From contig NZ_QAOH01000004.1 in assembly GCF_003050785.1 (NCBI RefSeq), positions 248,001-312,000 of the forward strand: a DNA stretch of 64,000 nucleotides. The letters run 5' to 3'. Below, piece after piece: positions 15,416 through 42,715 of this stretch. The DNA comes from Celeribacter persicus. GTDB taxonomy: Bacteria; Pseudomonadota; Alphaproteobacteria; Rhodobacterales; Rhodobacteraceae. The position numbers and the translations under genes were made by a program. Position 1 is the stretch's first letter. Each line of letters opens with the position of its first letter. The notes under the pieces were generated by a model, which made no database searches, had not been told where the DNA came from, and was given only the letters and a program-made list of their open reading frames with translations.

Positions 15416-15428
15416 GGCGTCTTTTTTT
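15404..15428 (+). terminator. Rho-independent terminator after nqrM
   Basis: GACGCC and GGCGTC pair as a 6-bp GC-rich stem around GCCTGA, followed by seven T. The nqrM stop codon lies in the loop. It ends the apbE-nqrM transcript. Confidence 0.85.
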
Positions 15429-15434
15429 CGGCCC

Positions 15435-15632
15435 CTAGCCCTTGACCGGCACCAGCCCCAAAACCAGCAAAATCACCGCCGCGATCAGCCCGAAAATCCA
15501 AAGCTGAACCCGCGGCCCTTCGGCTTTCCAGACAGAACGATAGCGATAGCCCGCGAGACAGGCGATCACGAACAATGTCGTGGCCATCAAAGGTGAAAGC
15601 GTCAGCGGCGATCCGGTCAGGTTTTCAATCAA
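15435..15632 (-). CDS. Small two-helix membrane protein of unknown function (TTG start)
   Basis: 65 residues with two hydrophobic stretches (LSPLMATTLFVIACLAGY and LWIFGLIAAVILLVLGLVPV) joined by a basic loop (RYRSVWKAEG). The start is TTG behind GGGAG at about seven bases. It converges on nqrM with about 20 bp between the stop codons. I do not recognise a family; a link to Na+-NQR is suggested only by position. Confidence 0.55.
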   Translation of the reverse strand: MIENLTGSPLTLSPLMATTLFVIACLAGYRYRSVWKAEGPRVQLWIFGLIAAVILLVLGLVPVKG

Positions 15633-15710
15633 GACGGGTCTCCCGGTCGGAAAAAGTTTACTTGAGCGCGAATTCCTCTACCCTGAAAGACAGTTCAGGG
15701 AGAAATTCAC

Positions 15711-26500: not shown

Positions 26501-26956
26501 GAGATCGGCCTGGTTGCGATCCATGACGCCGGCGCCGGGATCAATGTCGGCCTCTGCCGGATAGGGCTTAATGAGGCCCTGGCAGAAGCCGTGGATGGTC
26601 GAGCAGTTGATCTCGTCGATCGCGGCGCTCGCGGCGGCGAGATTGTCGCGATGGGCCTGGGTCAGCCCATCGGGCAGCGCCACGCGCAGTTCGGTCGCGA
26701 TCGTGCCGGTCGAGAGGTCGGCGACGAACTCGCGGACACGCGACAGCAGTTCGCTCGCGGCGAGTTCGGTGAAAGTGACGGCGGCGATGGAGCGCGGCGC
26801 TACGCCTTCGGCCAGCATGGCGGCGATGCGGCCAGCCATGACGGCGGTCTTGCCTGAGCCCGCGCCGGCCTCGACCAGGATCGAGCGATCATGGAGGCTG
26901 ATCGCATCGCGGCGCGCGCCGTCGTCCTTCAGTACCTTGGACACGCTGCTCATCAT
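23555..26956 (-). CDS. AddA-like UvrD helicase with C-terminal nuclease domain
   Basis: About 1133 residues. SF1 helicase motifs: Walker A VEAGAGSGKTAVMAGRIA near the start, Walker B HVLVDEFQDTDPLQTE, motif III VGDPKQAIYRFRGADVGAYV, and motif VI VAATRARELLVLPRLD. A RecB-type PD-(D/E)XK nuclease domain closes the protein (VVVDWKSDVNPEAQTLDHYR). The ATGATG start overlaps the stop of the preceding AddB-like gene. This is the layout of AddAB double-strand-break processing enzymes. Its place between two defence operons suggests an anti-phage or helper role and not the housekeeping copy; that is inference. Confidence 0.87.
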   Translation of the reverse strand: MMSSVSKVLKDDGARRDAISLHDRSILVEAGAGSGKTAVMAGRIAAMLAEGVAPRSIAAVTFTELAASELLSRVREFVADLSTGTIATELRVALPDGLTQAHRDNLAAASAAIDEINCSTIHGFCQGLIKPYPAEADIDPGAGVMDRNQADLTFLEIVDGWLRERLSGGQGGILAEMVLHSPGETVALIHKIAENLRRRPTLAAPSVSPLGGHLTAFRQAAADFAGFMDGVAAAEPETVTIVERLAEMATAVANGPDPATPAGLVRLLTSRPHPDLCTKAGAFASYRKKGKWAAAAKQAGLSKADGDRLNDAAETHYTTCCDAWVGLTQAASGHALAALIDEARPILQRYREHKRASAQLDFDDLIFAARDLLRDHDAVRRALGQRFAHVLVDEFQDTDPLQTEIFWRLCGEPVDGDADWTRFQIRPGALFLVGDPKQAIYRFRGADVGAYVQARDAFSAQDPDSLLSISTNFRSCASILTFVNERFEAVLSADGQPGFTALDPFHDDRSGLGVAALDIAVADENGKASAEQQRDAEADAIAELCARLIESHPIIDRRSGAERPCQPGDIALLAPTGAELWRYEEALERRGIPVATQAGKGLFRRQEIQDLIALTRVLADRRDTLALGALLRGPLVGLTEEDLLDIIWALPRSEEQPNRIPRLDLSVDPAVIAHPLAREVIERLQSLSRRGNSTIPHALLSQAVDVMRVRPLLLERHRGQAERALANVDLYLSLSTGYAVRGLRAFAEAMTAAWSDEARAVEGRPDAQEEAVALFTMHAAKGLEWPIVIPINTMTGVMAPDSAVIDRQTETFYCPVLGVTPEGYDTARQAEKEELDRERIRLWYVAATRARELLVLPRLDAAPSKSAWIGLVDLSLADLPGLDVSHLPADLAAAGAGAGNTQTRARFAAEAEAIAAAQARLTWLAPSRDENAAGTVLREEEAALWTGSADDQPPELEAAVLVQGGRERGLILHKLMEEVLTGEVPEAEAALTERAGHLIRALGQSPVADPATGLSAQELAACVARTLALPDIAALRPGLLAEFPVYSAQATDGVETATAGIADALTVGEDGRPFVVVDWKSDVNPEAQTLDHYRAQVRAYLDMTGAERGLIVLMTSGAVISVLPMIPTENEVA

Positions 26957-29607
26957 TCCGCCTCCCAGACCTGAGCGACTTCGCCAAGCCGCTCCGTGGC
27001 GGCCGGCATTTTGCGTTTGCAATAGGTGGCGCTTGCGTTGGCCGGCAGGGCGAAGGCGAGGTCGTCATAGTCGCCGCCGGTATCCGGGCCAGGCAGGGCC
27101 GCGCCTCCGGCGAGACTCGACCGTGCCGCGCGCAGATAGCCGGTGATCTCTTCCAGCACGGCCTCGGGATCGTCGAGCTGAAGATCGACGGGCTCGCGCG
27201 GGTAGAGCAGCGAGGCGCTGATGGCGACGTCGTCGCCGAGGAGCGCCTTCACCGCGAAAGCATAGAGGCAGCGTTGAAGTTCGCGTCCGCCGTTCAGCCG
27301 GATCTCACCGCGCGGCGGGCGGCCGGTCTTGTAGTCTCGTACCAACGCGCGCTTGCCGTCGCCCGAGATGTCGAGTCGGTCAATATAGCCGGCGATGTTG
27401 AAGCCCGTGTCAGGGATCGTGACCGGCGTGGTCGTATCCCAGGGCGTTTCCGCGGCGGATTTCGGTTCCGAGCCGCCGAAGGGCACCTCACCGTAGGAGC
27501 GTGCGCCCGGCAGGACATCATCGCCATAAGACAGGGCGCGGCCCGCCATCACGCGAGCGTCGTCGACGGTGCGCCCCCAGATGACGGCCGGCGGAACCGG
27601 ACGCTCGCTCTCCCAGTCGGCGGCGACGGCCTGCGCGGCCTGCGCCACCGCCGCGTCAATGGTTCCCGCGTCGGCCGAGGCAAGGCCGCCCCCGGTTTCG
27701 AGGTCGCGCAAGGCGCGATCGAGAACCATGTGGACGAGATCGCCGATCCCGAGCGCATCGAGCACGAGCGGTTCGGCGCTGCTCTGCGGTTCGCGCCATC
27801 CGAAGGCATAGACCCACACGAAGCTGAGTGGATTGCGCAGCAGGCGGCGCAGCGAGCTGGCCGACTGGGTGCGGCCGAGGATGGCGAGAACGAGCGGATG
27901 ATCCGCCCGTACGAGCCCGTCATGGGGAGTAATCTCGGCCTGCCGCCAGTCGCGCCAGCAGCCCTGCGCACCGACCGCTTGCGGATCGGCTGCGAACTCT
28001 CGGGGCCGGGCCATGAGGCGGTCTGTTTCACTGAAAGCGTGCGCCGGAATCGCGTTGCGGCGCAGATAGATTTCGTCGCCACGCCCGGCGAGCAGAGGGC
28101 TGCGACCCAGCAGACGCCCGTCGCTGTCGCGCCGGGCGCGCGAAAGAACGACGGTCTCGGCCGTCGTGGCGAGGATCGTCTCGAAGTCGCGGCGGTCGGC
28201 GAGGTTGACCGGCAGCGGGTCGAGCACCGGGGTCGGGATGATATGGTCCGGGATCAGCCGGTCTTCGGCAATCCCGCGCGGCCAGCGCGAGGAATTAAGC
28301 CCGAGGAGCCGCACGAAGCGGCGGGGCGACGCTGCGAGCGCGCTGGCGGACATCCAGGCGACGCAGACGCACGCTTCCAGTCCGTCGTCCTGCTTCAGGG
28401 TTTCCAGCGTGGCGTCGATCGAGGCGGCGGGGCCGGCGAGCAGAGCCTTGCGCCAGATCGCCAGCGCGCGGCCCTTGAGGAAGGCTTCTCCGATCTCGCT
28501 GGCGGCCTCCGATCCTTTCACAAGGGTCTCGACCGCCCTGCGCAGCGCGGGAACATGGTCGGCGCCGTCGGGCCAGTCTTCCGGCGTCAGCCGGGCCAGC
28601 AGGCGGTTCCAGGCACCCGGAGTCGAGAGCGGCGCATCGGTCGGCAGCACCCGCAGCCAGCCTTCGGGCAAGGTCTCGAAAGGCCCGCTGTCCCGGCAGA
28701 GCGCCGCAAGGCGGCGCAGCCGAGACTGCGACAGGCCGCGAACCACGATGTCGGCCAGCGCCGCAGCCGCCTGGCCCTCGCGGGTGGCGACGGTGCGGAC
28801 GCCGTGGACGAAGTGCAGGTCGATGTTGGCGTCGGCGCGCAGGGCCAGGAAATGATCGTCATAGTCGGCGGGCGAGGCGGTCGCGATGGCGATCTCCGAG
28901 GACGAGACGCCAGTTGCGAGCAGGCTGCGCACCCAGCGCATCGCCTCGATGGCCTCGTGATAGGCGGTCGCGGCGCTGACAGCGCTGATCCCTGGCGTTT
29001 GCGCCGGTGCGCGCGTGATCGTGACGCCCGTGCCGTCCAGCCATGCGGGAACGCTCCTCGGTCCGGCCGTCCACTGCACCGGGATATGGACGGTGAGGGC
29101 CTGGAGCAGCGACCGCCAGCAGGGCGAGAGTTCGGTAAGGCCGACGATTTCCACGGGGCCGAGGACCGCCGGCGCATGAGCAACGCGGGCGGTCGCGGCG
29201 GTGACAATGTCGAGAGGCCGCATCATGCCGGGCGGAAGCTGGTCGAGGACGGCCGCTTCCAGGCGTGCGATAGCGTCGAGGCGCGAATGATCCGCCGCGC
29301 GTGCGGCAAGATCGATGCCCGCGCGCCAGGCTTTGTGGAGCGTGTCGGCTGCCGCGTCGATCATGCCGGGAAGAGCCTTAATGCTCTCCAGCTCGCCCAT
29401 CGGCGTGGCAGGCAAGGCCGCCTGGATGGCAGCGCGCAGGCTCTCGTCATCGATAGGGCGGGCGAAGCCGCCCGCCAGCCGGATGGCGGCCTGCTCAAAC
29501 GACATGATCTGGAGGCCGTGACGACCGTCACGACCCGCCGCCAGGCGGCTCTCCCGCATGGCGAGGCGACCGTGAACGACCAGGGTGGATCGATGCGCGA
29601 TGGTCAT
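26953..29607 (-). CDS. AddB-like PD-(D/E)XK nuclease/inactivated helicase
   Basis: 884 residues, somewhat shorter than common AddB proteins. The N-terminal 650 residues resemble the non-functional helicase half of AddB without a clear Walker A. The C-terminal nuclease is seen as GYIDRLDISGDGKRALVRDY, with KTGRP following and QRCLYAFA after that. A late Cys (TYCKRK) could belong to the AddB iron-sulphur site, but I cannot locate the full Cys set. It is the first gene of a two-gene operon and is divergent from the WYL regulator across 285 bp. With the downstream helicase it should form a heterodimer that unwinds and degrades DNA ends. Confidence 0.8.
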   Translation of the reverse strand: MTIAHRSTLVVHGRLAMRESRLAAGRDGRHGLQIMSFEQAAIRLAGGFARPIDDESLRAAIQAALPATPMGELESIKALPGMIDAAADTLHKAWRAGIDLAARAADHSRLDAIARLEAAVLDQLPPGMMRPLDIVTAATARVAHAPAVLGPVEIVGLTELSPCWRSLLQALTVHIPVQWTAGPRSVPAWLDGTGVTITRAPAQTPGISAVSAATAYHEAIEAMRWVRSLLATGVSSSEIAIATASPADYDDHFLALRADANIDLHFVHGVRTVATREGQAAAALADIVVRGLSQSRLRRLAALCRDSGPFETLPEGWLRVLPTDAPLSTPGAWNRLLARLTPEDWPDGADHVPALRRAVETLVKGSEAASEIGEAFLKGRALAIWRKALLAGPAASIDATLETLKQDDGLEACVCVAWMSASALAASPRRFVRLLGLNSSRWPRGIAEDRLIPDHIIPTPVLDPLPVNLADRRDFETILATTAETVVLSRARRDSDGRLLGRSPLLAGRGDEIYLRRNAIPAHAFSETDRLMARPREFAADPQAVGAQGCWRDWRQAEITPHDGLVRADHPLVLAILGRTQSASSLRRLLRNPLSFVWVYAFGWREPQSSAEPLVLDALGIGDLVHMVLDRALRDLETGGGLASADAGTIDAAVAQAAQAVAADWESERPVPPAVIWGRTVDDARVMAGRALSYGDDVLPGARSYGEVPFGGSEPKSAAETPWDTTTPVTIPDTGFNIAGYIDRLDISGDGKRALVRDYKTGRPPRGEIRLNGGRELQRCLYAFAVKALLGDDVAISASLLYPREPVDLQLDDPEAVLEEITGYLRAARSSLAGGAALPGPDTGGDYDDLAFALPANASATYCKRKMPAATERLGEVAQVWEAE

Positions 29608-29797: not shown

Positions 29798-29855
29798 TTG
29801 ACGAGCACCCAATATGGGAATAATAATTACATGGGTAGCTTCGATATGTCCATAT
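29798..29855 (+). promoter_or_regulatory. Candidate promoter/operator before WYL-led defence operon
   Basis: TTGACG (29798-29803) lies 17 bp before an AT-rich TAATAA (29821-29826). Downstream, ATATG-TC-CATAT (29844-29855) is a short inverted repeat 37 bp before the regulator start. BrxR/CapW-type WYL repressors bind inverted repeats upstream of their own gene, so this is a reasonable site, seen by eye only. Confidence 0.3.
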
Positions 29856-29892
29856 AGTTTTTATGCTCACCGGCGCTTAGAGGTAGAAGACG

Positions 29893-30753
29893 ATGCGGAA
29901 CGTCGAGACGGCGCTGAAATGGGGAGTCGAACGCCGACTCGAATTTATCGAGTTCCGTCTCTACTGGGAGGGCGGCGTAAATCGGTCAGATATCGTCGAA
30001 GCTTTCGACGTGTCTGTGCCCCAGGCATCGAAGGATTTGACGCTGTATCAAGAGCGGGCTCCACACAATGCTGTCTATGACAAGAGCGCGAAACGCTATG
30101 TCGCTAGTAGCGAGTTTCAGCCCTGCTTTCTGAAGCCAGATGCCGGACAATACCTCAATCAGCTCAGATCCGTAGCCGAAGGCATCTTGGCGTCATCTGA
30201 ATCCTGGATTGCTCGTTCGCCCCCCTATGCCGGACCGCCTGTGCCGGCCCGCGGCGTCAAAAACGACACGTTGCGGACGGTGCTTGAGGCGATCCGGCAT
30301 AACGAGGCGGTAGAGATCAAGTATCAATCGCTCTCCAGCGACGATCCTCGTTGGCGATGGATCGCGCCGCACGCGATCGGCTTTGATGGATATCGCTGGC
30401 ACGTTCGCGCCTTCTGCGACGTCGACAAGACTTTCAAGGACTTCCTGCTGTCCCGGGTCTTGGAGATCAAATCGTTTCGACCAAGCGAGGTGTCGCCCGA
30501 AGATGACGCCGACTGGAACGAGTTCATCACGCTGGAAATAGGACCGCACCCTGATCTCTCCGAGAGCCAGAAGAGGATAATCGGTCTGGATTACGGGATG
30601 CGCGGCGGACGTGCGCGGCTCCGGGTTCGGAAAGCGCTGCGGTACTATGCTCTGAGGCGATTGGGGCTCGACACACCGCCAGAAGCTCGTCGCCCGCAAG
30701 ATCAGCAAATCGTGCTCTTGAATGAGGGGGTTGCCGATGAAGATCATCGATAA
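29893..30753 (+). CDS. WYL-domain transcriptional regulator, BrxR/CapW-like
   Basis: 286 residues in three parts. First comes an N-terminal winged helix-turn-helix (RRLEFIEFRLYWEGGVNRSD, then VSVPQASKDLTLYQER). A WYL domain follows at about 125-205 (VEIKYQSLSSDDPRWRWIAP; HAIGFDGYRWHVRAFCD), then a C-terminal WCX-like segment (LRVRKALRYYALRRLGLD). This is the shape of BrxR/CapW proteins that sit first in BREX, CBASS and restriction loci and repress them until infection. The coding end overlaps the start of the next gene by 17 bases, so it is part of the same transcript. Confidence 0.87.
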   Translation: MRNVETALKWGVERRLEFIEFRLYWEGGVNRSDIVEAFDVSVPQASKDLTLYQERAPHNAVYDKSAKRYVASSEFQPCFLKPDAGQYLNQLRSVAEGILASSESWIARSPPYAGPPVPARGVKNDTLRTVLEAIRHNEAVEIKYQSLSSDDPRWRWIAPHAIGFDGYRWHVRAFCDVDKTFKDFLLSRVLEIKSFRPSEVSPEDDADWNEFITLEIGPHPDLSESQKRIIGLDYGMRGGRARLRVRKALRYYALRRLGLDTPPEARRPQDQQIVLLNEGVADEDHR

Positions 30754-33700
30754 CACCTCGCAACTGTTCGGCGATGATCTGAAAGCGGCGGTGAGGCGTG
30801 GCGCTCGGTTGAAGATTGCTGCGTCGTGCTTTTCGATCTATGCCTTCGAGGCGCTGAAAGCCGAGCTTTCCAAGGTCGAAAGCCTTCAGTTCATTTTCAC
30901 CGCCCCGACGTTCGTGCCAACGGAGGTCACGGATCGCCTGCGCAAGGAACGACGAGAGTTCTTCATCCCGAAGGCTCAGCGGGAGAGCGGTCTCTATGGA
31001 ACGGAGTTTGAAATCCAGCTCCGCAACAAGCTGACGCAAAGGGCCGTCGCGCGCGAATGTGCCGACTGGATACGCAAGAAGGCCAGGTTCCGGTCGAACA
31101 CAACGAAAGCCCCGATGCAGCAGTTCATGCATGTGGCGGGCGATGACGGCGGGATCGCCTACATGCCGATCAGCGGCTTTACGGCCGTCGATCTCGGCTA
31201 CCAGAAAGGTGATGCCGTCTCGAATTTCGTGACGCGGTTCGACGACCCGAATCACACGCAGATGTACCTTCAACTGTTCGACCAAATCTGGTCAGACCCG
31301 GAGAAACTCAATGATGTGACGGCCGCGATCTGCGGCCACATCGAGTCGGTCTACCAGGAGAACTCGCCCGAGCGCATCTATTTCATAATGCTCTACAACA
31401 TCTTCCACGACTTTCTGGACGAGATCGATGAAGACGTCCTGCCGAACGACCTGACCGGCTATCAGGACAGCGTGGTCTGGAACAAGCTCTTCAACTACCA
31501 GAAGGACGCCGCGACCGGCATCATCAACAAGCTCGAAACCTACAACGGGTGCATCCTCGCCGACTCTGTCGGCCTCGGAAAGACGTTCACCGCTCTGGCG
31601 GTGGTCAAGTACTACGAGCTGCGGAACCGGTCCGTTCTCGTGCTCTGCCCCAAGAAGCTCGCGGACAACTGGCGGAACTACAACACCAACCTGACCACCA
31701 ACATATTCGCCAAAGACCGGTTCAACTACGACGTCCTCTGCCACACCGATCTGTCTCGGACGTCAGGCGAATCCTTCGGCATCCCGCTCAATCGGGTGAA
31801 CTGGGGCAACTACGACCTCGTCGTGATCGACGAGTCCCACAATTTCCGCAACAACGACGTCTACAAAGACCGCGAGACGCGCTACCAGAAGCTCATGAAC
31901 AAGGTCATCCGCGCCGGCGTGAAGACCAAGGTTCTGATGCTCTCAGCAACCCCGGTGAACAACCGGTTCACGGATCTGCGCAACCAGCTCGCGCTCGCCT
32001 ATGAGGGGCAGTCCGAGGCGCTCAGCAAGAATCTGAAGGCCCAGACCAGTGTCGAAGAGATTTTCCGACGAGCCCAGAAGGCTTTCAATGAGTGGTCTTC
32101 CCTGCCGCCGGACGAGAGGACGGCCGCTTCGATCCTAAGGGCGCTCGATTTCGACTTCTTTGAGCTTCTCGATGCCGTGACCATCGCCCGGTCACGCAAG
32201 CACATCGAGACCTTTTACGACACCAAGGACATCGGGAAGTTCCCCCAAAGGCGCAAGCCGCTCTCTTATCATCGCCCGATCACCGAGCGGTCCGACGTCA
32301 TGGGGTTCAACGACATCTTCACTCAGCTTTCGGTGCTAAAGCTCGCGGTCTACGCCCCGATCAGCTACATCCTGCCCAGCCGTCTGCGGAAGTATGAGGA
32401 GATCTACGACACGCAGGTCGAGGGCGGACGCGGCAAGCTCAGACAGGCCGATCGTGAGCGCAGCCTCCAGGCGCTCATGACAACCAACCTGCTGAAACGC
32501 CTGGAGAGCTCTGTCGCCGCGTTCCGCCTCACGCTTCGGTCTCTCGGCGCCAACATCTCGCGCACGCTCGATGCGATCGACGAATTCGAGAAAACCGGAC
32601 GCGGCGACAGCGTCAGTGACTACCTTGCAGACGTGAGCGACTTCGACCCGGAGGACGATGACCTCTCCGGCCTCGACGAGTTCACGGTCGGGAAGAAGGT
32701 CCAGATCAGCCTCGCCGACATGGACCTGCCATCCTGGAAGCACGACCTCGCAGCGGACCTCGTCCTCATCGAAGACCTCATCGCCTCGATGGACAAGGTA
32801 AAGCCGACTGACGACGCCAAGCTTCAGCATCTGCTTGCCATGGTCAGGCAGAAGGTCGACGAGCCTCTGAACACCGGAAACCGCAAGGTGCTGGTCTTCA
32901 CCGCCTTCGCAGACACCGCCAACTACCTCTTCGACAACCTGGCGCCCTTCGCACAGCAGCTCGGGCTGCATGTCGCCAAGGTCACCGGGTCGGACGCGCC
33001 CAAGACTACGCTCAAGAAGTCCTACGACTTCCAGAGCGTCCTGACCCTGTTCTCTCCGCGGTCGAAGGAAAAGGCCATCGTCCTGCCGAACGAGCCCGGC
33101 GAACTGGACATCCTCATCGGCACCGACTGCATCTCGGAAGGCCAGAACCTTCAGGACTGCGACTTCCTGATCAACTACGACATCCACTGGAACCCTGTCC
33201 GCATTATTCAGCGGTTCGGCCGGATAGACCGGATCGGATCGCAGAATGCCCAGATCCAGCTGGTCAACTACTGGCCGGACATCACCCTCGACGAATACAT
33301 CAACCTCAAGGAGCGCGTCGAAAATCGGATGGTGATCGCCGACGTGACAGCGACCGGCGACGACAACGTGCTGACCGCCAAATCCAGCGACATCGCTTAC
33401 CGCAAGGAACAGCTCAAGCGCCTCCAGGACGAGGTGATCGAGCTGGAGGACGTAAAGGCCGGCATCTCCATCACCGACCTTGGCCTCAACGACTTCCGGA
33501 TGGACCTGCTCAATTACGTCAAGGAGCATGGCGAGCTCGACAACGTGCCCTTCGGTATGCACGCCGTGGTCCCCGCGCAACCGGAGCTGGGCTTGCAGCC
33601 CGGGGTCATCTTCGCGCTGAAGAACATCCATGACAGCGTGAACGTCAACCAGCAGAACCGGCTGCACCCGTTCTACTTGGTCTACATCGACGACGACGGC

Positions 33701-34009
33701 CGGATCGTCGCCGACCACACCGAGGTCAAGCGCCTGCTCGACTTGATCCGATCCAGCTGCAAGGCGCGGATCGAGCCGATCCACGACGTTTGCCGCATCT
33801 TCAACGAGCGCACCGAGGACGGGCGCAAGATGGGCCGCTATTCCGACCTGCTCTCAAGCGCGATCCGATCGATGATCGAGGTGAAGGAAGAGAAGGATAT
33901 CGACAGCCTGTTCAGCGGCGGCCGAACCACGGCGCTGACCCATACCATCAAGGGGCTGGACGATTTCGAGCTGATCGCCTTCCTGGCCATCGAAGGGGGC
34001 GCGTCATGA
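30737..34009 (+). CDS. PLD-like domain fused to SNF2-type helicase
   Basis: 1090 residues. The first 150 or so resemble a phospholipase-D-type nuclease domain (LFGDDLKAAVRRGARLKIAA, FTAPTFVPTEVTDRL). A SNF2-group SF2 motor follows: Walker A DSVGLGKT at 276-283, the DESH box at 365-368, motif III LSATPVNNRF, and motif VI QRFGRIDRIGSQN from residue 825. An insertion rich in Asp lies between the lobes (about 620-665). The start behind GAGGGG at 30737 is favoured over one five codons earlier. Such proteins move along DNA in restriction-type systems. The stop overlaps the DUF4391 start (ATGA). Confidence 0.9.
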   Translation: MKIIDNTSQLFGDDLKAAVRRGARLKIAASCFSIYAFEALKAELSKVESLQFIFTAPTFVPTEVTDRLRKERREFFIPKAQRESGLYGTEFEIQLRNKLTQRAVARECADWIRKKARFRSNTTKAPMQQFMHVAGDDGGIAYMPISGFTAVDLGYQKGDAVSNFVTRFDDPNHTQMYLQLFDQIWSDPEKLNDVTAAICGHIESVYQENSPERIYFIMLYNIFHDFLDEIDEDVLPNDLTGYQDSVVWNKLFNYQKDAATGIINKLETYNGCILADSVGLGKTFTALAVVKYYELRNRSVLVLCPKKLADNWRNYNTNLTTNIFAKDRFNYDVLCHTDLSRTSGESFGIPLNRVNWGNYDLVVIDESHNFRNNDVYKDRETRYQKLMNKVIRAGVKTKVLMLSATPVNNRFTDLRNQLALAYEGQSEALSKNLKAQTSVEEIFRRAQKAFNEWSSLPPDERTAASILRALDFDFFELLDAVTIARSRKHIETFYDTKDIGKFPQRRKPLSYHRPITERSDVMGFNDIFTQLSVLKLAVYAPISYILPSRLRKYEEIYDTQVEGGRGKLRQADRERSLQALMTTNLLKRLESSVAAFRLTLRSLGANISRTLDAIDEFEKTGRGDSVSDYLADVSDFDPEDDDLSGLDEFTVGKKVQISLADMDLPSWKHDLAADLVLIEDLIASMDKVKPTDDAKLQHLLAMVRQKVDEPLNTGNRKVLVFTAFADTANYLFDNLAPFAQQLGLHVAKVTGSDAPKTTLKKSYDFQSVLTLFSPRSKEKAIVLPNEPGELDILIGTDCISEGQNLQDCDFLINYDIHWNPVRIIQRFGRIDRIGSQNAQIQLVNYWPDITLDEYINLKERVENRMVIADVTATGDDNVLTAKSSDIAYRKEQLKRLQDEVIELEDVKAGISITDLGLNDFRMDLLNYVKEHGELDNVPFGMHAVVPAQPELGLQPGVIFALKNIHDSVNVNQQNRLHPFYLVYIDDDGRIVADHTEVKRLLDLIRSSCKARIEPIHDVCRIFNERTEDGRKMGRYSDLLSSAIRSMIEVKEEKDIDSLFSGGRTTALTHTIKGLDDFELIAFLAIEGGAS

Positions 34010-34761
34010 CCCTCTACGATTGGCCCCGCGCCGCAGCCTTCGGGCGCGTGATCCCCAAGAACAAGATCTACAAGCACGCCGGGGCGAACACGGGCCTCAA
34101 GGACCTCTTCGTGCGCGAGGTGGACCAGATCGTCTGGTCGCACAAGCTGGCGCCCGAGACGGTCAATCTGGCGGCCACTCGCCAAGTGGCCGAGATACAG
34201 GTCTTCCGCATCGCCGCACGCACCGCGACGCTGGACGCGGCTGTGCTGCGCGCCGTCGACAAGGCCATCCCCTTTCCGCTGATCTTCGAGGTGGCCCATG
34301 GCGGCCGCGTCAGGTTGGCCGCGGCCTACAAGCGGCCTAGCGAGGCCGACAGCGCCCGCTGGGTGGTGGGTGACTATTTCCAGGGGGAATGGCTGCCGGA
34401 AGACCTGCCGCGCACCCCATTGCCGGTGGCGCTGAACATGGGCGCGCTGTACGAGCGGCTGCTCGAGCCGCTGGTGGCGGGTCAGACGGCCCGGTTGGTC
34501 CCGGGCATGGGCGAGGCCCAGCAGACACCCTTCACCCCTGCCGAGGCGGAGCACCCCGTGTCGCTGGCGGAGCGCATCGCGCAGGCCGAGGCGATCAAGG
34601 CGCAGGCGCGTGAGGTCGAGCGGATCAAGGCGCGACTAGGGCGTGAGAAGCAATTCAACAAGCGTGTGGCGATAAATGCCGAGCTTCGCGCGGCAGTGAG
34701 CCACCTGCAAAAACTTCAGGCTTCCGGCGATATCCAGATAGGTCAAAATCATGGAGATTGA
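34006..34761 (+). CDS. DUF4391-family protein of the defence operon
   Basis: 251 residues: MTLYDWPRAAAFGRVIPKNK, then IYKHAGANTGLKDLFVREVD and QIVWSHKLAPETVNLAAT. This matches DUF4391, a small family that accompanies SNF2 helicases and DNA methyltransferases in defence loci. A helical C-terminal half (residues 185-245) looks like a coiled coil (AERIAQAEAIKAQAREVERI). The biochemical role is unknown to me; it may bridge helicase and nuclease. It overlaps the genes on both sides (ATGA upstream, 11 bases downstream). Confidence 0.85.
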   Translation: MTLYDWPRAAAFGRVIPKNKIYKHAGANTGLKDLFVREVDQIVWSHKLAPETVNLAATRQVAEIQVFRIAARTATLDAAVLRAVDKAIPFPLIFEVAHGGRVRLAAAYKRPSEADSARWVVGDYFQGEWLPEDLPRTPLPVALNMGALYERLLEPLVAGQTARLVPGMGEAQQTPFTPAEAEHPVSLAERIAQAEAIKAQAREVERIKARLGREKQFNKRVAINAELRAAVSHLQKLQASGDIQIGQNHGD

Positions 34762-35704
34762 TACGATATATTCCTATCCCGATCTCGACGTATTGAACGA
34801 GATCGTTTCCGGCCCGCAAATAGAAGTGGCTTCGCCGTTCTATTCATCAGCCTCACTTAAGTTGGTTACCAAGGGCGGTGTAAAACGAATGGCGCTAATC
34901 ACGCGCCTGCCAACTCAGTACATAATGCCCTCAGCATTCATTGAAAACGATCCGAAGCCATTGTCGGCCCTCTTCAGCATAATGAATGATCGACTCAGAG
35001 TGTATGCGTTACCATCTCTTCATGCCAAGCTATACTTGCAGGATAGTCTTGCATGGGTTGGAAGCGCCAACATGACCTTAAACGGGTTTTCCGGAAAGCC
35101 TGAGATTATCATTCGATTTAAGGACCGAGAGAAGTATTGGAGAGGCATATTTTCTGATTATCGTAACCTCGCCAATCCGGTCAACAAGGCCAATCTGGAG
35201 AAACTCCAAAGATGGATTGACCTTGGACTCACAAAAGTGAGGAGCCAGGAGAATACCGCCGAAAGGCCTTCAGGGGAGACCGCTTACGCACCACTCACTT
35301 TTGAAGATTTCGTTGAGTGGTTGGCCGAACCAAGTCAGCCACACCCATCAATCCGAAAGCACATACTCGACCGAGTGAAGGGAAAAAACTTCATGAGCGG
35401 TCACGTACCGCCAGCATTTCATGGGGCAATGGCGTTTCTACGTCTGAAAAGCGAGTACCGAAGTCGCTTAGTAAAGACCAACGATACGTCTATCCCCTCG
35501 GACATTATTTCTGACTTCGCGTCCTTTGTTGAAAAACATGGAGACGAATATCGAGGGCCACAAGGCGGGTATTGGCGAAGTTATCTCTCAACAAGGCTTG
35601 GAGGCGCGCAGCGCAGTGGAGGTGCGGGAGACACCGTTGCGAAGAAATGTCTCGTACTGATTCCCGCTTATGTCAACGCGCGACGACAGCCACAATTCGG
35701 ATAA
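34751..35704 (+). CDS. Phospholipase-D-like (HKD) nuclease
   Basis: 317 residues with a single HKD motif, LHAKLYLQDSLAWVGSANMT (H-x-K then G-S-x-N), in the first third, so an active enzyme would be a dimer. The family includes the BfiI/Nuc-type nucleases and PLD nucleases in DISARM-like loci. The C-terminal 120 residues are unassigned and the last 30 (RLGGAQRSGGAG...) look poorly conserved. A+T content is clearly higher than in the DUF4391 gene, starting almost at the gene border. Confidence 0.8.
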   Translation: MEIDTIYSYPDLDVLNEIVSGPQIEVASPFYSSASLKLVTKGGVKRMALITRLPTQYIMPSAFIENDPKPLSALFSIMNDRLRVYALPSLHAKLYLQDSLAWVGSANMTLNGFSGKPEIIIRFKDREKYWRGIFSDYRNLANPVNKANLEKLQRWIDLGLTKVRSQENTAERPSGETAYAPLTFEDFVEWLAEPSQPHPSIRKHILDRVKGKNFMSGHVPPAFHGAMAFLRLKSEYRSRLVKTNDTSIPSDIISDFASFVEKHGDEYRGPQGGYWRSYLSTRLGGAQRSGGAGDTVAKKCLVLIPAYVNARRQPQFG

Positions 35705-35715
35705 GGACAGAACGC

Positions 35716-37629
35716 ATGGAAAAACTGAAGATGCGAACGCGGAGCCTGAGTCAAGAGCAGATCAAGGCGATCAAAGATGTATTCCCGTCCTGCGTTCGAG
35801 AAGCATACTTCGAAGCAACAGGGGAGAAGCGGCTACTTGTTGACTTTGACGAGCTCAGACAAGAGCTGAGCGACCAGATAGTAGATGGCCCCCAAGAACG
35901 ATTTCGACTGGATTGGCCTGGAAAGCGCGAAGCGCTTGCGATGGCCAACATGCCGATCGAAAAGACCCTACTTCCTTGCAGGGAGGAGAGCGTCAATTTT
36001 GAGGCGACGCAGAACCTCTTTTTGGAGGGGGACAATTTCGAGGCACTCAAAATCATCGAGGAGACATTCCTGGGATCGGTCAGGATGATTTACATTGATC
36101 CTCCATATAATACGGGAAGGAACCTAATATATAGGAACGATTATAGTGAGAAATCTGCTGATTTTCTTGAAAGGTCCGGACAAATCTCCGGTGAAGGCGG
36201 GCGACTAGTTGCCAATCCAGAGACAAGTGGGCGCTTTCATTCCGATTGGCTGTCGATGATGTATCAGCGCTTGAAGGTTGCAAAAAACATCTTGGCAAAG
36301 GATGGGGTTCTCGTTTGCGCAATAGATGAGAATGAGTTTGGAACTTTGTCTGTACTGATGAAAGAAGTATTCAGCGGTGCGGCGTGGGAGCACGCTTACG
36401 TAAGCGTTATCCACAACCCGCGAGGCCAGCAGGGAACAAACTTCTCTTACATCAACGAGTACCTGATCTTCGTCTATCCGAGCGGCACAAAATCCATAGG
36501 CGATCGTAAAATCCGTGAGGAGGACGTGAACTGGTCTCAGTTTAGAAATTGGGGTGGAGAGTCGGAGCGTACCGATGCAAAGAACTGCTTTTACCCCGTT
36601 CTGGTCCAAGATGAGAAAATTATAGGATTTGGAGACGTCTGCCCCGATGACTTCCACCCCGAGCAGACCGAGTGGAGGGATGGCGTCGCGTACGTCTATC
36701 CAATCGACAACTCTGGCACCGAGAGGAAGTGGCGTTACGCCCGCCAGAGCGTAGAAGAGATCGCCAGCATGCTAAGGGCGAAGCGCTCTGGAGACGGGTA
36801 TCAGATTGAAATTGGAAAGACATTTGGTCTTTACAGGAGCGTTTGGACCGATAAACGCTATGATTCGAATGAATACGGTACTAAGTTGGTGAATAGTCTT
36901 GTTGAAGGATCAGGATTTACGTTCCCGAAGAGTCTTTGGGCTGTGTATGATCCGATTGAAGCAGTGACCGGGAACCACAAAGACGCGATCATATTAGACT
37001 TCTTTGCTGGGTCTGCGACAACTGCACACGCTGTCATGCAGCTCAATGCCAATGATGGCGGAAACCGGCGTTTCATCATGGTGCAAGTGCCGGAAGCAAT
37101 CGACTCCTCGCTTCCACCTTACAAGCGTGGCTTCACGACCATCGCAGAAATTTCGAAAGAACGCATCCGCCGCGCAGGTGGAAAACTCTTGGAGGGCGAA
37201 TGTCACCCCGACTGGAACCGCGATGTCGGCTTCCGGGTGCTCAAGGTGGACACATCGAACATGAAGGACGTCTACTACCGTCCCGACGAGCTAAAGCAGT
37301 CCGACCTGCTCGACATGGTCGACAACGTGAAGGACGGCCGCACGGCCGAGGACCTGCTGTTCCAGGTGCTGCTCGATTGGGGCGTGGACCTGACGCTGCC
37401 CATCCGCCGCGAGATGGTGCAGGGCAAGACCGTGTTCTTCGTCGACGACAACGCCCTTGTCGCCTGCTTCGACCGCGGCATCACCGAGGATCTGGTGAAG
37501 GAGCTGGCCGGCCACGAGCCCCTGCGCGTCGTCTTCCGCGACAACGGCTTCGTCTCTGACGCCGTGAAGATCAACGTCGAACAGATCTTCCGCCAGCTCT
37601 CACCCACCACCGACGTCAAGTCGATCTGA
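35716..37629 (+). CDS. mod: Type III restriction-modification methyltransferase (Mod)
   Basis: 637 residues. It has the beta-class N6-adenine methyltransferase order: motif IV DPPYNTG at 128-134 first, the target-recognition region in the middle (about 200-400), and the AdoMet-binding motif DFFAGSATTAHAV from 428 last. The N-terminal KTLLPCREESVNFEATQNLF and the GDNFEALKII segment before DPPY are typical of Mod subunits. The start at MEKLKMRTRS is set by AAGGACAG. It should methylate adenine on one strand of a non-palindromic site and supply DNA recognition for Res. The first three quarters are AT-rich; after about 37190 base use returns to the GC-rich norm, consistent with exchange of the recognition part. 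Confidence 0.93.
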   Translation: MEKLKMRTRSLSQEQIKAIKDVFPSCVREAYFEATGEKRLLVDFDELRQELSDQIVDGPQERFRLDWPGKREALAMANMPIEKTLLPCREESVNFEATQNLFLEGDNFEALKIIEETFLGSVRMIYIDPPYNTGRNLIYRNDYSEKSADFLERSGQISGEGGRLVANPETSGRFHSDWLSMMYQRLKVAKNILAKDGVLVCAIDENEFGTLSVLMKEVFSGAAWEHAYVSVIHNPRGQQGTNFSYINEYLIFVYPSGTKSIGDRKIREEDVNWSQFRNWGGESERTDAKNCFYPVLVQDEKIIGFGDVCPDDFHPEQTEWRDGVAYVYPIDNSGTERKWRYARQSVEEIASMLRAKRSGDGYQIEIGKTFGLYRSVWTDKRYDSNEYGTKLVNSLVEGSGFTFPKSLWAVYDPIEAVTGNHKDAIILDFFAGSATTAHAVMQLNANDGGNRRFIMVQVPEAIDSSLPPYKRGFTTIAEISKERIRRAGGKLLEGECHPDWNRDVGFRVLKVDTSNMKDVYYRPDELKQSDLLDMVDNVKDGRTAEDLLFQVLLDWGVDLTLPIRREMVQGKTVFFVDDNALVACFDRGITEDLVKELAGHEPLRVVFRDNGFVSDAVKINVEQIFRQLSPTTDVKSI

Positions 37630-37638
37630 GGGGGCCCG

Positions 37639-40600
37639 ATGAAGCTCAAGTTCAAGGTCCAGCCCTATCAGACCAATGCCGTAAACGATGTGGTCGACTG
37701 CTTCGCCGGCCAGCCCATGACCTCTGGCCTGACCTACCGCATCGACCCCGGCCGCAAGGCGCAGACCAGCGCCTTCGAGGAAGGCTTCAAGAACGCCGAC
37801 CTCGCCCTGAGCGACGTGCAGATCCTGGAGAACATCCAGAAGGTCCAGCGGCGCCAGAACCTGCCCGTCTCGCAGTCGCTGACAGACTTCACGACCTTCA
37901 ACGCCCGGGGCGAGCGCGTGCCCGTCTCGGCCACCTACAGGCGCGACGCACTAGCCGCGACCCGCGTTCACCTCGACGTCGAGATGGAGACCGGCACGGG
38001 CAAGACCTACTGCTACATCAAGACCATCTTCGAGATGAACAAGCGGTACGGCTGGTCGAAGTTCATCATCATGGTGCCGTCGATCGCCATTCGCGAAGGA
38101 GTATACAAGTCACTGCAGATCACGGCTGACCACTTCACCGAAAGCTACGGCAAGAAGGCGCGGTTCTTCATCTACAATTCCAAGCGCCTGCACGAGTTGG
38201 AGAGCTTTTCGTCCGACGCCGGGATCAACGTGATGGTGATCAATATCCAGGCGTTCAATGCGAGCGGCAAGGACAACCGGCGCATCTACGAGGAGCTGGA
38301 CGATTTCCAGTCGCGCAAGCCCATCGACGTGATCGCCTCTAACCGGCCGATCCTGATCCTGGACGAGCCGCAGAAGATGGAAGGCGCAGCGACGATGGAG
38401 GCGCTGCCGAAATTCAAGCCGCTGTTCATCCTGCGCTATTCGGCGACCCACCGGACCCAGCACAACCGCGTTCATAGGCTGGACGCGCTGGACGCCTACA
38501 ACCAGAAGCTGGTCAAGAAGATCGCGGTGCGCGGCATTCAGACCCGCGGGCTGGCCGGCACCAACGCCTATCTCTACCTCGAAGGCATCGACATCTCGAA
38601 GAAGGCCCCCGTGGCGCGGATCGAAATGGAGGTGAAGCTGAAGTCGGGCGAGATCAAGCGCCAACTTCGGCGGCTCGAGTTCCGCGACGACCTGTTCGTG
38701 GAGTCGGGCGAGCTGGACCAGTATCGCGGCTTCACGATCAGCCAGATCGACGCCATCAACGACACGGTTGAATTCACCAACGGGGAAGTGCTGAGGGCTG
38801 GTGAGGCGAACGGCGACGTCTCTGAACGCGACATCCGCCGCATCCAGATCCGCGAGACGATCAAGGCGCATCTGGACAAGGAAAATCAGCTGTTCGCACA
38901 AGGCATCAAAGTCCTGTCGCTCTTCTTCATCGACGAGGTGGTGAAGTACCGGGACTACGATCAGGCTGACGAGAAAGGCGAATATGCCCGGGTCTTCGAG
39001 GAAGAGTACGAGTTGCTGAAGGCCGAGTACCTTTCGGAGCTCGCAATCGACAACGAGGCGTACCGGAAATATCTCGCCAGCATCGATCCCGGCAAGACGC
39101 ACAACGGCTATTTCTCGATCGACAAGAAGACGAACCGCCTCAAAGACCCTGCCGTTGGCGCCCGCTCGGTCGATTCCGACGACGTGGACGCCTACGACCT
39201 GATTCTGAAGGACAAGGAGCGCCTGCTCTCCTTCGCCGAACCCACACGGTTCATCTTTTCACACTCGGCGCTGCGCGAGGGGTGGGACAACCCGAACGTC
39301 TTCGTCATGTGCATGCTGAAGCACAGCGACAACACCATTTCCCGCCGCCAGGAAGTGGGGCGCGGCTTGCGGCTGAGCGTGGATCAGCACGGCGACAGGA
39401 TGGACCACCCGGCGGTGGTGCACGACATCAACGTGCTGACTGTGGTGGCGAGCGAGAGCTACAAGGACTTCGTGGCCGGTCTGCAGAAGGAAATCGCGGA
39501 GACCCTCTCGTCGCGCCCGCGGCAGGCAACCGAGGAGTACTTCACGGGCAAGACACTCGCGACCGAGCATGGCCCGGTTGAGGTGACTGCCGCCATGGCC
39601 AAGCAGATCTACCGCTATCTGGTGAAGAACGACTACACCGACGATTCGGACCAGATCGCTGACGCCTACCACGAAGCCAAGGCGGCTGGGAAACTGGCCG
39701 ACTTGCCCGATGAGCTCAAGCCCCACGCAGAGCAGGTGTTCCAGCTCATCGACAGCGTCTTCAGCGACGCGCAATTGCCCAAGGTCGATGACGGCCGCAA
39801 GCCCAAGACCAATCCCCTGAATGCGAACTTCGAGAAGAAGGAGTTCCAGGAGCTTTGGGCGCGGATCAACCGCAAGGCAGTCTATCGGGTTGAATTCGAC
39901 TCGGCGGAGCTGATCCGCAAGTGCGTCAGTGCGCTGGACAGCCAGCTGCGGGTCACGCCCCTGCAGTACACCGTTAGCGTCGGCGTGCAGAACGACGGTT
40001 TGACCGACAACCAGCTTCGCAGCGGTGATGGCTTTACAGTCACCAGCACCACGACCGAGCACGGAGACTCGATCCACTCTCTCGTAAAGTACGACCTCAT
40101 TGGCAAGGTGGCCGAAAACTCACAGTTGACGCGAGACACGGCGGCGACCATCCTCGGCCAGATCGAGCCGGTGGTTTTCGAACAGTTCACGAAGAACCCC
40201 GAACACTTCATCTCCGAGGCCTCGCGCATCATCACCGAGCAGAAGGCGGCTATGGTGATCGAGCGTCTGTCGTATGACGGCCTGTCCGAGTGCTACGACG
40301 TCGACATTTTCACCGCCAACCAGACCGGGCAGGACTTCTCCAAGGCGAGCGCGAAGCTGAAAAACCACGTGTACGATTATGTCGTCACGGACTCGGAGAT
40401 CGAGCGGCGCTTCGCCGATCAACTCGATGCAAGCACCGAAGTCGTGGTCTATGCGAAGCTGCCTCGCGGGTTCCTGATCCCCACGCCCGTCGGCGACTAT
40501 AACCCTGACTGGGCGATTTCCTTCAAGGAAGGAAGCGTCAAGCACATCTATTTCGTCGCCGAGACCAAGGGCAGCATGTCGTCCATGAAACTGCGAGAGA

Positions 40601-40737
40601 TCGAAAACACCAAGATCGCGTGTGCCCGGAAATTCTTCGACGAGATCGGCCGTCGGGTCACGGAAGACCGGGTCAAATACGACGTTGTCACCAGCTACGA
40701 GAAGTTAATGGATATTGTCGGGCGCACGGGAGCCTGA
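37639..40737 (+). CDS. res: Type III restriction endonuclease subunit (Res)
   Basis: 1032 residues. SF2 helicase with Walker A METGTGKT (116-123), a DEPQ box (242-245), motif [11 protein letters not shown] and motif [17 protein letters not shown]. The C-terminal PD-(D/E)XK endonuclease shows NPDW (955-958) and ETK (975-977). Length and order are normal for Res. It starts 9 bp after mod with a GGGGG box. With Mod it forms the Type III enzyme that translocates or diffuses along DNA and cuts unmodified sites. The frame is intact, so the enzyme is probably active. Confidence 0.95.
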
Positions 40738-40762
40738 GAAAATCGACATTACGGGGGATCGA

Positions 40763-42715
40763 ATGAAGATTTCGACGATACTGGATCACATTGATAGCGG
40801 GCACATGGCCTTGCCAGAATTCCAGCGCGGCTATGTGTGGAACCGTGATCAGGTCCGGGGCCTGTTCGATTCCCTTTATCGTCGGCATCCAGTTGGTGGC
40901 TTACTCGTCTGGGCCACCGAATCGAAGACGGCGGCTCACCGGGGCGACGGTACATTGGCGGCGGGCATCGTCAAACTGCTGCTCGATGGACAGCAGCGGA
41001 TGACGACGCTCTATGGCGTCGTTCGAGGAAAGCCGCCGAAGTTCTTCGACGGAAATGCCCAGGCATTCACGGGTCTGCGATTCCACCTCGGCACGGAGAC
41101 CTTTGCGTTCTACCAGCCAGTCAAGATGCAGGACGATCCCCTCTGGATCGACGTGACGAGCCTGATGCAGGCTGGAACGGCCGGGCTCGGCGCGTTCGTT
41201 TCAGAGCTATCAGCCGTTCCGGAACACGCCGCCAACGTCGGTGCCTATGTCGGCCGCCTCAGCGCCTTGCTCGGTATCACCGACATCGATCTCCACGTTG
41301 AGGAAGTTACTGGAGCGGACAAGACGCTCGACATCGTCGTGGACATTTTCAACCGGGTGAACAGCGGCGGCACCAAGCTGTCGAAGGGCGATCTCGCCCT
41401 GGCAAAGATCTGCGCCGAGTGGCCGGACGCGCGGGATTCCATGAAGGCTAAGCTCAAGGATTGGGCTGACGCCGGCTATAACTTCAACCTCGATTGGCTG
41501 CTGCGCTCGGTGAATACGGTCCTCACCGGCGAGGCCAAATTCAGCTACCTCCACGACAAAGGCGCGCTCGACATTCAGGACGGATTGAAGCGCGCCTCCA
41601 AACATATCGATACCAGTTTGAACCTCATAGCAGGGAGACTTGGCCTCGATCACGATCAGGTCTTTTTCGGTCGCTTCGGCGTTCCGGTTATGGTTCGATT
41701 GATGGACCAGAAACAGGGCACCCTCGATGCCGTTGAACGCGACAAGCTGCTCTTCTGGTTTGCACAAGCAGGAATGTGGGGTCGATTTTCGGGATCGACA
41801 GAGACTATTATCGACCAGGATTTGGGAGCCCTTGAAGGTCCAACCGGCGGTCTCGACGCGCTGCTGGAGCGGCTTCGGCTCTGGCATGGCGGCTTGCGGG
41901 TGGAGCCAGGCCATTTCACAGGCTGGAGCCTCGGAGCGCGCTTCTATCCGGTCCTCTACATGCTGACCCGCATGGGCGAGGCGCGAGATTGGGGGACGGG
42001 ACTGGCCCTTAAGGCGAACCTACTGGGTAAGATGAGCCGGCTGGAAGTCCATCATATTTTCCCCAAGGCACAGCTCTATAAGAGGAATCATAGCCGGCCA
42101 GAAGTTAATGCGCTGGCGAATTTTTGCTTTCTGACAAAAGATACAAATCTGAGCATCAGCGACCGCTTGCCGGAGATCTATTTCGCGGAGGTCGAGACGA
42201 AGCATCCAGGGGCGCTGGCGTCCCAGTGGATCCCCACCGACCCCGCACTGTGGAAGATCGAGCGCTATCGCGACTTCCTCGAGGCGAGGAAGGAGCTATT
42301 GGCGGCCGAGGCGAATAAGCGCTTCGAAGAGCTGCTGCACGGGGATTCCAAGTGGTTGGGCGCGCCGATGTCGCCTGTCGTCTCAGCAGAACCTCCATTT
42401 GTCGGCGGTGTGACGAGTGAGGCCGAAGAACTGGAGCTCGAAGCCATCAACGACTGGGTCGAGGGAGAAGGGTTACCGCGCGGGCAGGTCAGCTACGACT
42501 ATGCAGACCCTGATACAGGTGACCAGAAGGCCGTGTTCGATTTGGCTTGGCCCGACGGCCTCCAACCAGGACTGACCGGTCCGGTCGCGGTGCTGCTGAA
42601 CGAACCCATGGATGTGTTGTCATTGGCAAGCGCTGCCGGCTTTCGCTGCTTCACCTCAGCTGCCGAGTTTCGAAGTTACGTGGCGAATGAGATCCTGAAG
42701 CTGGAGGCAGCTTGA
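40763..42715 (+). CDS. DUF262/HNH GmrSD-like restriction protein
   Basis: 650 residues. The N-terminal DUF262 domain carries LPEFQRGYVWNRDQVRGLFD and DGQQR (75-79), the ParB/Srx-like nucleotide-using signature. A C-terminal HNH/DUF1524-type nuclease has LEVHHIFPKAQL (His 430-431) with NALANFCFLTKDTN after it. GmrSD enzymes cut DNA with modified cytosines, using NTP. The last 120 residues form an extra domain I do not recognise. The ATG start behind GGGGGA is better than the TTG 48 bases earlier. It follows res by 25 bp, so it appears to be the last gene of the operon, adding defence against modified phage DNA. Confidence 0.88.
   Translation: MKISTILDHIDSGHMALPEFQRGYVWNRDQVRGLFDSLYRRHPVGGLLVWATESKTAAHRGDGTLAAGIVKLLLDGQQRMTTLYGVVRGKPPKFFDGNAQAFTGLRFHLGTETFAFYQPVKMQDDPLWIDVTSLMQAGTAGLGAFVSELSAVPEHAANVGAYVGRLSALLGITDIDLHVEEVTGADKTLDIVVDIFNRVNSGGTKLSKGDLALAKICAEWPDARDSMKAKLKDWADAGYNFNLDWLLRSVNTVLTGEAKFSYLHDKGALDIQDGLKRASKHIDTSLNLIAGRLGLDHDQVFFGRFGVPVMVRLMDQKQGTLDAVERDKLLFWFAQAGMWGRFSGSTETIIDQDLGALEGPTGGLDALLERLRLWHGGLRVEPGHFTGWSLGARFYPVLYMLTRMGEARDWGTGLALKANLLGKMSRLEVHHIFPKAQLYKRNHSRPEVNALANFCFLTKDTNLSISDRLPEIYFAEVETKHPGALASQWIPTDPALWKIERYRDFLEARKELLAAEANKRFEELLHGDSKWLGAPMSPVVSAEPPFVGGVTSEAEELELEAINDWVEGEGLPRGQVSYDYADPDTGDQKAVFDLAWPDGLQPGLTGPVAVLLNEPMDVLSLASAAGFRCFTSAAEFRSYVANEILKLEAA

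Follow-up and report, generated by a model that had tools for sequence, protein, structure and literature searches.

The stretch of DNA considered here (hereafter the window) comprises 64,000 nucleotides of Celeribacter persicus, positions 248,001 to 312,000 of contig NZ_QAOH01000004.1, and contains a seven-gene operon centered on Mod and Res, a type III restriction–modification (R-M) pair. The genes of a SNF2-family helicase, a DUF4391 protein, Mod and Res form its four-gene core, called the chassis below; a WYL-domain regulator gene precedes it, and two further genes, referred to as cargo, occupy positions (slots) beside the core genes. The features of the operon are the following:

29893..30753, plus strand: WYL-domain transcription regulator, CapW/BrxR-like (Pfam WYL 2.5e-12; CapW/BrxR structure matches)
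30722..34009 (start perhaps 30737), plus strand: core gene 1, SNF2-family motor with a degenerate N-terminal phospholipase D (PLD)-like domain (SNF2/Helicase_C; PADLOC 'HKD+Snf2' 9e-130)
34006..34761, plus strand: core gene 2, DUF4391 protein with an alpha/beta domain and a long helical hairpin (PF14335 2.4e-52)
34751..35704, plus strand: slot-1 cargo, predicted small PLD nuclease (PLDc_2 1e-5; HAKLYLQD and GSAN motifs)
35716..37629, plus strand: core gene 3, Mod, type III N6-adenine methyltransferase (N6_N4_Mtase 2.4e-19; MTase_III 3.2e-181)
36364..36933, plus strand: hypervariable target-recognition segment of Mod (residues 216-405 counted from 35719; low identity in close pairs)
37639..40737, plus strand: core gene 4, Res, type III restriction subunit with a PD-ExK nuclease (ResIII and RE_endonuc; REase_III E=0)
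40715..42715 (start perhaps 40763), plus strand: slot-3 cargo, DUF262/HNH type IV-like nuclease, HEC-05/BrxU-like (GmrSD_N 1.5e-24; HEC-05 5.1e-43)

The original prediction, made from the letters alone, described seven intact, tightly packed genes on one strand, and the coordinates bear this out: all seven open reading frames (ORFs) lie on the plus strand, are free of internal stops and lie within 32 bases of their neighbors. The helicase gene overlaps the WYL gene by 32 bases (start 30722) or 17 bases (start 30737), the DUF4391 gene overlaps the helicase gene by 4 bases, and the small PLD gene overlaps the DUF4391 gene by 11 bases; gaps of 11 bases (PLD–Mod) and 9 bases (Mod–Res) follow and, depending on the start, a 23-base overlap or a 25-base gap between Res and the DUF262/HNH gene. 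Three plus-strand terminator-like sites were found, none of them at a gene junction, and an Rfam search returned no family reaching its gathering score. The domain assignments proposed earlier agree with the Pfam, PADLOC and NCBIfam scans, the small PLD protein being the weakest by model alone.

The helicase, DUF4391, Mod and Res genes represent one conserved chassis, not systems joined at random. DUF4391 served as the probe for locus collection, because it is the most diagnostic part. Among plasmids, 12 loci were picked from 44 records with a DUF4391 match, together with the best DNA match (H1). The order helicase, DUF4391, methyltransferase, DEAD-box Res was found in all eleven annotated unbroken plasmid loci, in hosts ranging from Enterobacteriaceae and Mycolicibacterium to the archaeon Methanomethylovorans; the H1 locus is broken up by insertion sequences, and one unannotated record carries the same four core genes (ORF search). 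Species genomes were scanned as well and yielded 452 relatives; only the best 80 of these were retained, with a bias to near relatives, and a scan of viral contigs contributed 23. Profiles were built from the window proteins and their matches, ORFs were called by a simple script, and the loci (cited below by L numbers, genomes by G numbers) were mostly gathered through DUF4391.

Helicase, Mod and Res are present in 115 of the 168 stretches covered by the profile search. Merging these full loci at 97% helicase identity left 80 non-redundant loci holding the three genes, and all 80 keep the order helicase, DUF4391, Mod, Res. Testable DUF4391 loci, i.e., those with at least 3.4 kb before and at least 9 kb after the gene, number 106 with the window included (100 after merging of near-identical copies); 38 loci were set aside as cut, and three weak or partial matches (L023, L126, L127) and the window's own DNA (L001) were excluded. 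The whole core is present in 104 of the 106, the two exceptions having no Res (L050) or no helicase (L057). The original prediction had named the occurrence of the type III pair and the helicase/DUF4391 genes only apart from each other as an outcome contradicting it; in these loci they are found together.

Across 398 genomes of the phylum, DUF4391 occurs in 23, and the window helicase is matched strongly (>700 bits) 21 times and weakly twice. DUF4391 is present in 20 of the 21 genomes with a strong helicase match (the exception is G443), and in the DUF4391 genomes without a helicase match (G398, G401, G615) the gene lies close to a contig end. Res matches were detected in 43 genomes, 13 of them at 60% identity or above; 11 of these 13 carry DUF4391, and the other two have a free-standing Mod–Res pair (G451) or a locus cut at the contig edge (G472). 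At the level of the class, DUF4391 was found in 11 of 385 genomes (9 above the Pfam cut-off). At least 80% of the queried 9-kb core is present in 9 of 5,426 E. coli genomes, where RefSeq names the copies helicase-related protein, DUF4391 protein, methyltransferase and type III endonuclease. A search of the flanking DNA in 20 relatives gave no usable empty site.

The helicase retains the SNF2 motifs across the aligned copies, and the nuclease signature HxK(x4)D was not found in 76 of 77 of them, the window copy included (first 320 residues searched). Because this motif is missing from its PLD-like domain, the window helicase is probably a motor without nuclease activity. The sole copy with the motif belongs to L128, whose 20 kb lack DUF4391, Mod and Res: there (7953-15831) an unassigned 353-aa protein and an Eco57I-type methylase/enzyme come after the helicase relative, an arrangement which looks like a sister system whose helicase remains a nuclease. 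The helicase nuclease may have been lost where Res does the cutting. Hence, the helicase-nuclease module which the original prediction saw as added to a type III enzyme gives way to a single four-gene core with a motif-less helicase. The same evidence bears on a rival reading in which the helicase, an active HKD nuclease-helicase like those of Type-2 BREX-related (BR; DUF499) or Pbe systems, would be the effector and Res would be secondary. The name of the best PADLOC model ('HKD+Snf2') and the HKD-helicase effectors on record (PMC12839542 and PMC10853773) speak in its favor; with the motif missing in nearly all copies and Res retaining its PD-ExK motif, it is very improbable, and the assignment of the helicase as an HKD nuclease was rejected.

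Related combinations exist outside the chassis: in L136 (6635-14961, minus strand) and L137 (6147-13998, minus strand), DrmD-like SNF2 helicases (PADLOC 705 and 658 bits) directly precede a type III Mod–Res pair, and no DUF4391 is present. Judging from these two loci, the association of SNF2 motors with type III enzymes seems to have arisen on more than one occasion.

The second core protein, DUF4391, was modeled with AlphaFold2 at a mean predicted local distance difference test (pLDDT) score of 89.3, as an alpha/beta domain followed by a long helical hairpin at the C-terminus; its sequence has no match in the PDB at E <= 1.

The type III pair is EcoP15I-like, as originally predicted: Mod matches the sequences of structures 6k0w (5.4e-44) and EcoP15I Mod 4zcf (1.2e-40), Res matches EcoP15I Res 4zcf_C (1.1e-71), and the catalytic motifs are kept. 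In Mod, DPPY stands before FxGS (motif order beta), both being conserved, and in Res the motifs GTGKT, DEPQ and PDWA...ETK (PD-ExK) are conserved. The recognition segment behaves differently from the rest. In 59 locus pairs with identities of 96.5% or more (helicase) and 85% or more (Res), it shows a median identity of 26%, falling below 40% in 49 pairs (several of the ten pairs at or above 40% represent one locus present twice), vs. 71% and 73% for the flanking parts of Mod. Since divergence of the recognition segment is not accompanied by divergence of helicase or Res, the motor appears to serve any target site.

Cargo genes are found in three positions: between DUF4391 and Mod (slot 1), between Mod and Res (slot 2), or after Res (slot 3), the window using the first and the third. 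Cargo differs in 104 of 137 locus pairs whose helicases share 94% identity or more and whose Res proteins share 85% or more, without a filter on the flanks. The safer count is 66 of 93, restricted to close pairs in which both loci extend 3 kb or more beyond Res, because unfiltered differences may reflect contigs ending soon after Res; slots 1 or 2 differ in 44 of the 137, all of these being pairs which share ancestry and are not independent events. Among the 80 non-redundant loci, the cargo includes Schlafen-type AlbA_2 proteins (12 members, slot 2), DUF4357/PDC-S14 (7), Mrr type IV (6) and GajA (5; L078 and L152 also have a UvrD-type partner), along with RhuM, DUF2130, GmrSD and SMC-like proteins; identity was judged from one scanned representative per cluster. 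Cargo was called in 77 of the 115 full loci, an undercount, since proteins below 150 aa were ignored and genes were missed in L004 and L163 (a longer overlapping ORF won, the gene being annotated) and L028 (overlap with mod). Thus, both the specificity and the extra defenses are exchangeable on a chassis which is itself nearly constant. The full seven-gene set, treated as a unit in the original prediction, does not hold as such: the PLD and DUF262 genes are cargo, absent from or replaced in closely related cores.

The last gene was predicted to encode a GmrSD/BrxU-like protein, which is supported by the GmrSD_N match, above the Pfam cut-off, by the HEC-05 match and by a remote match (4.2e-12, 48.7 bits) to structure 7p9k, which we take to be BrxU. 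The DGQQR motif of the DUF262 part is present; the HNH part rests on an HHIFP...N...N motif, GmrSD_C not having been called by Pfam. GmrSD-like cargo recurs in L155 (slot 1) and L166 (slot 3). Of 156 records matching the DUF262 protein, three closer plasmid relatives were inspected: the first (67%) precedes large helicase genes, the second (53%; L173, 1-8319) is located downstream of DISARM genes, with DrmC annotated, on a Nostoc plasmid, and the third (53%) has no annotated defense gene adjoining it. By its relatives and their settings, the DUF262/HNH gene is a mobile module.

The regulator at the head of the operon was proposed to be of the CapW/BrxR type, and near full-length matches to CapW 7tb6 from S. 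maltophilia (3.1e-69 over residues 7-277) and BrxR 7t8k (1.8e-44 over residues 6-258) confirm this relationship. Two elements precede its gene:

29798..29827, plus strand: sigma-70-like promoter, TTGACG, 18 bases, AATAAT (10/12 matches)
29850..29866, plus strand: candidate WYL operator, CCATA-TAGTTTT-TATGC, inverted half-sites with a 7-base spacer (from the upstream-region alignment; binding predicted)

A simple palindrome search upstream of the WYL genes found no common repeat, and the element emerged only by aligning selected rows. In the selected group 1, TTGAC is present in 8/8 and ATAAT in 6/8 of the aligned upstream regions, and the inverted half-sites are recognizable in 5/8; the 12 rows of group 2 show, in roughly this position, a GCGCAT/ATGCGC-like repeat, which in some cases lies at or inside the called WYL start. 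The WYL gene would accordingly face a partly conserved promoter–operator element, with the operator as a candidate.

We estimate at roughly 0.6 the probability that the operon is a type III R-M system in which SNF2 motor, DUF4391, Mod and Res form a four-gene chassis, accompanied by two exchangeable cargo genes and a CapW/BrxR-type repressor, and that it works as set out here. Starting from gene content, order, conservation, motifs and swapping as observed, the proposed activities, complex and regulation can be pictured as follows. Mod, whose swappable recognition domain would define an asymmetric site, would methylate a single strand of it, and Mod–Res would cut DNA lacking this mark, like EcoP15I. 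The SNF2 motor, with its PLD-like domain devoid of the catalytic motif, and DUF4391, acting as an adaptor by means of its helical hairpin, may form a sequence-independent motor complex helping Mod–Res to work on phage DNA that is replicating or covered by protein. A second nuclease would be supplied by the small PLD gene, the DUF262/HNH protein would attack phages whose base modifications block Mod–Res, and the WYL protein would hold the operon low until a nucleic-acid infection signal releases repression. By analogy with BREX and BrxU, it is plausible that both modified and unmodified DNA are attacked.

Several points weigh against this reading. In L140 (G451; 485-5481, minus strand), a Mod–Res pair of the window subfamily stands alone behind LpxK and DUF455 genes, without helicase or DUF4391, and Mod–Res pairs 38-46% identical often occur without these two, as ordinary type III; given such lone pairs, the motor is dispensable for some type III enzymes. 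In G401 (L144), DUF4391 lies at a contig end and no Mod or Res follows it within the 10.5-kb contig. The DUF4391 model has no structural match in the PDB with E <= 0.001; therefore, the role proposed for it is a guess. The AlphaFold2 model of the helicase, made from 14 sequences, was too poor for use (pLDDT 52.5). No cargo of at least 150 aa was called in 38 of the 115 full loci, the pairs behind the exchange counts are related by descent, and the operator is poor in three of the eight group-1 upstream regions (L029, L032, L036).

Some of these points would also suit a separate defense (e.g., abortive or replication-blocking) made up of the helicase and DUF4391, which would share with the type III pair only its operon and address and no joint mechanism. 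Mod–Res can stand alone (L140, L131, L138), the homologous helicase of L128 lies beside an Eco57I-type enzyme and lacks Mod–Res, and the helicase and DUF4391 genes overlap by 4 bases. Still, we consider this account doubtful: all four genes are kept in 104 of the 106 testable loci despite free swapping of cargo and recognition segments, and the loss of the helicase nuclease motif where Res is present suggests a division of labor.

Further genes potentially related to defense are located on the opposite strand upstream of the operon:

26953..29607, minus strand: accessory AddB-like PD-(D/E)XK protein, divergent from the operon (PDDEXK_1 2e-16)
23555..27022, minus strand: accessory AddA-like UvrD helicase-nuclease (domain scan)

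The divergent AddAB–WYL arrangement, with the region upstream of WYL lying between the two, is found in four relatives, too (L064, L069, L075 and L091, the last containing only part of addB). The operon-side AddAB is an extra one, because a second AddB/AddA-like pair is encoded on contig 11 of the genome. Elsewhere, the genes after Res include HerA-type and metallophosphoesterase-type ones (L075 17020-19062, L096 16942-19014, L086 15732-16877) and, in L084, AddB and AddA; DNA-end-processing machines recur beside the chassis. Downstream of addAB and on the same strand (20331-23377, minus), the window encodes a SIR2-like protein and a HerA helicase (PADLOC SIR2 3.1e-157, HerA 3.8e-160), a pair which by these matches is a second defense system adjoining the operon. 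Farther away (8092-13944, minus strand) lie Na+-translocating NADH:quinone reductase-like genes (NqrA, NqrB, an Rnf-Nqr subunit, NqrF-like), with GC content lower than that of their surroundings.

The small PLD gene deserves separate consideration. Its PLDc_2 score is just under the Pfam cut-off, and the HAKLYLQD...GSAN motif is clear in the four aligned copies, which are also the only ones found (window, L025, L037, L051). It was not found in plasmids (E <= 1e-5) or viral contigs, was absent from 368 of 369 sampled genomes (its own being the single match), and had no sequence match in the PDB at E <= 0.1. All four PLD loci have a Mod recognition allele in common (window vs. L025 100%, L037 90%, L051 84%), while the locus with a closer helicase, L030 (95%), has a recognition segment only 18% identical. 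This suggests that the PLD protein may need this Mod allele, as a target-matched restriction nuclease would, in a set of four copies of which L025 is near-identical to the window. The latter locus is a 4147-base contig of a Planctomycetales metagenome-assembled genome with DUF4391 93%, PLD 99% and Mod 99-100% identical to the window; its presence in a contig of another phylum represents either a recent transfer or a mis-binned contig.

There is about an even chance that the linkage is a matter of hitchhiking, one recombination event moving both the PLD gene and the adjoining mod. The 11-base distance between the genes, the small number of copies and the occurrence of the same allele without PLD in L083 and L125 fit this explanation; against it, among the seven non-redundant pairs sharing slot-1 cargo, the three PLD pairs have similar recognition segments and the other four have different ones. 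A more elaborate scheme, which as a whole we put forward tentatively and hold to be rather unlikely, makes the PLD protein a sequence-specific restriction endonuclease (distantly NgoFVII/BfiI-like, type II) matched to the Mod allele, so that one methyltransferase would protect the host from both Res and PLD. The chassis would then take up target-matched cassettes (PLD plus Mod recognition domain) in addition to target-blind cargo, and the WYL protein would control both the operon and the divergent AddAB, which would degrade the cut ends.

As to the broader meaning, the chassis is kept in very different microbes, and its target-recognition part and extra defense genes are swapped freely. If the type III chassis reading is right, there is a widespread form of type III R-M with a dedicated SNF2 motor and an adaptor without a known fold match, and type III R-M acts as a docking chassis for other defenses, in the way known from type I R-M and BREX. 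The DUF4391 family, whose function is unknown, would gain a testable role, the embedded unknown proteins would become a concrete candidate set for defense screening, and, since recognition domains are freely exchanged on a near-constant motor, the part played by SNF2 motors in restriction could be tested directly.

Of the known systems, type III R-M (EcoP15I) is represented by sequence relatives of both its subunits with their catalytic motifs kept; the operon differs in that DUF4391 and a near-constant SNF2 motor precede the pair, that cargo occupies three positions and that the window copy has WYL control. DISARM, a system defined by the presence of DrmA and DrmB, is similar in combining an adenine methyltransferase with a SNF2 helicase, to which that of the operon is related (NCBIfam DrmD, 157.7 bits). 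However, this score is below the DrmD cut-off of 610 bits, the methyltransferase is part of a type III Mod–Res pair, and neither DrmA nor DrmB matches any of the other six operon proteins (PADLOC, NCBIfam); among the best 25 of the 49 PADLOC matches of the helicase there is no DrmB, and DrmA appears only as a weak helicase match (72.9 bits). Membership in DISARM was, therefore, rejected. The same applies to the NCBIfam phospholipase-D anti-phage helicase NF042964, which we take to be the Gao_RL protein (123.8 bits vs. a cut-off of 1100). The resemblance to 'restriction-like' systems mentioned in the original prediction is not supported on this score; Gao_RL, moreover, is entered in PMC12278908 as a single helicase protein, 'RL'.

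Type-2 BR (DUF499) and Pbe systems, as described in PMC12839542 and PMC10853773, share a PLD/HKD-like domain N-terminal to a superfamily 2 helicase beside DNA-modification genes; here the helicase is devoid of the HKD motif and Res is the evident nuclease. No Pfam match to DUF499 or DUF3780 was found in the operon at E <= 0.01, and with the HKD motif missing as well, Type-2 BR membership was rejected. The type IV family BrxU/GmrSD/HEC-05 (HEC-05 is equated with BrxU in PMC11411939) resembles the last protein of the operon in its DUF262 DGQQR motif, putative HNH-type C-terminus and HEC-05 match, but the window protein is remote and sits in a type III operon, not beside BREX or type I.

In the open-access literature searched (most subscription papers and bioRxiv being outside its scope), no description of the four-gene core was found, and DUF4391 was named in one paper, within a genome-comparison table; PADLOC already includes the 'HKD+Snf2' model, the best match of the window helicase. 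Embedded defenses have precedents: PMC11411939 describes TgvAB in type I R-M and cites defenses in Hma systems, and PMC12255303 describes a type I R-M locus under RptR which contains DarTG2. Cargo lies between core genes in those loci as it does in the chassis, whose host system differs in being of type III and in using three positions. Picton et al. (PMC9122601) reported clusters of type III and type IV systems adjoining BrxR homologues. Overall, the embedding of defense genes in R-M loci is already known, and the chassis is regarded here as a variant of type III R-M.

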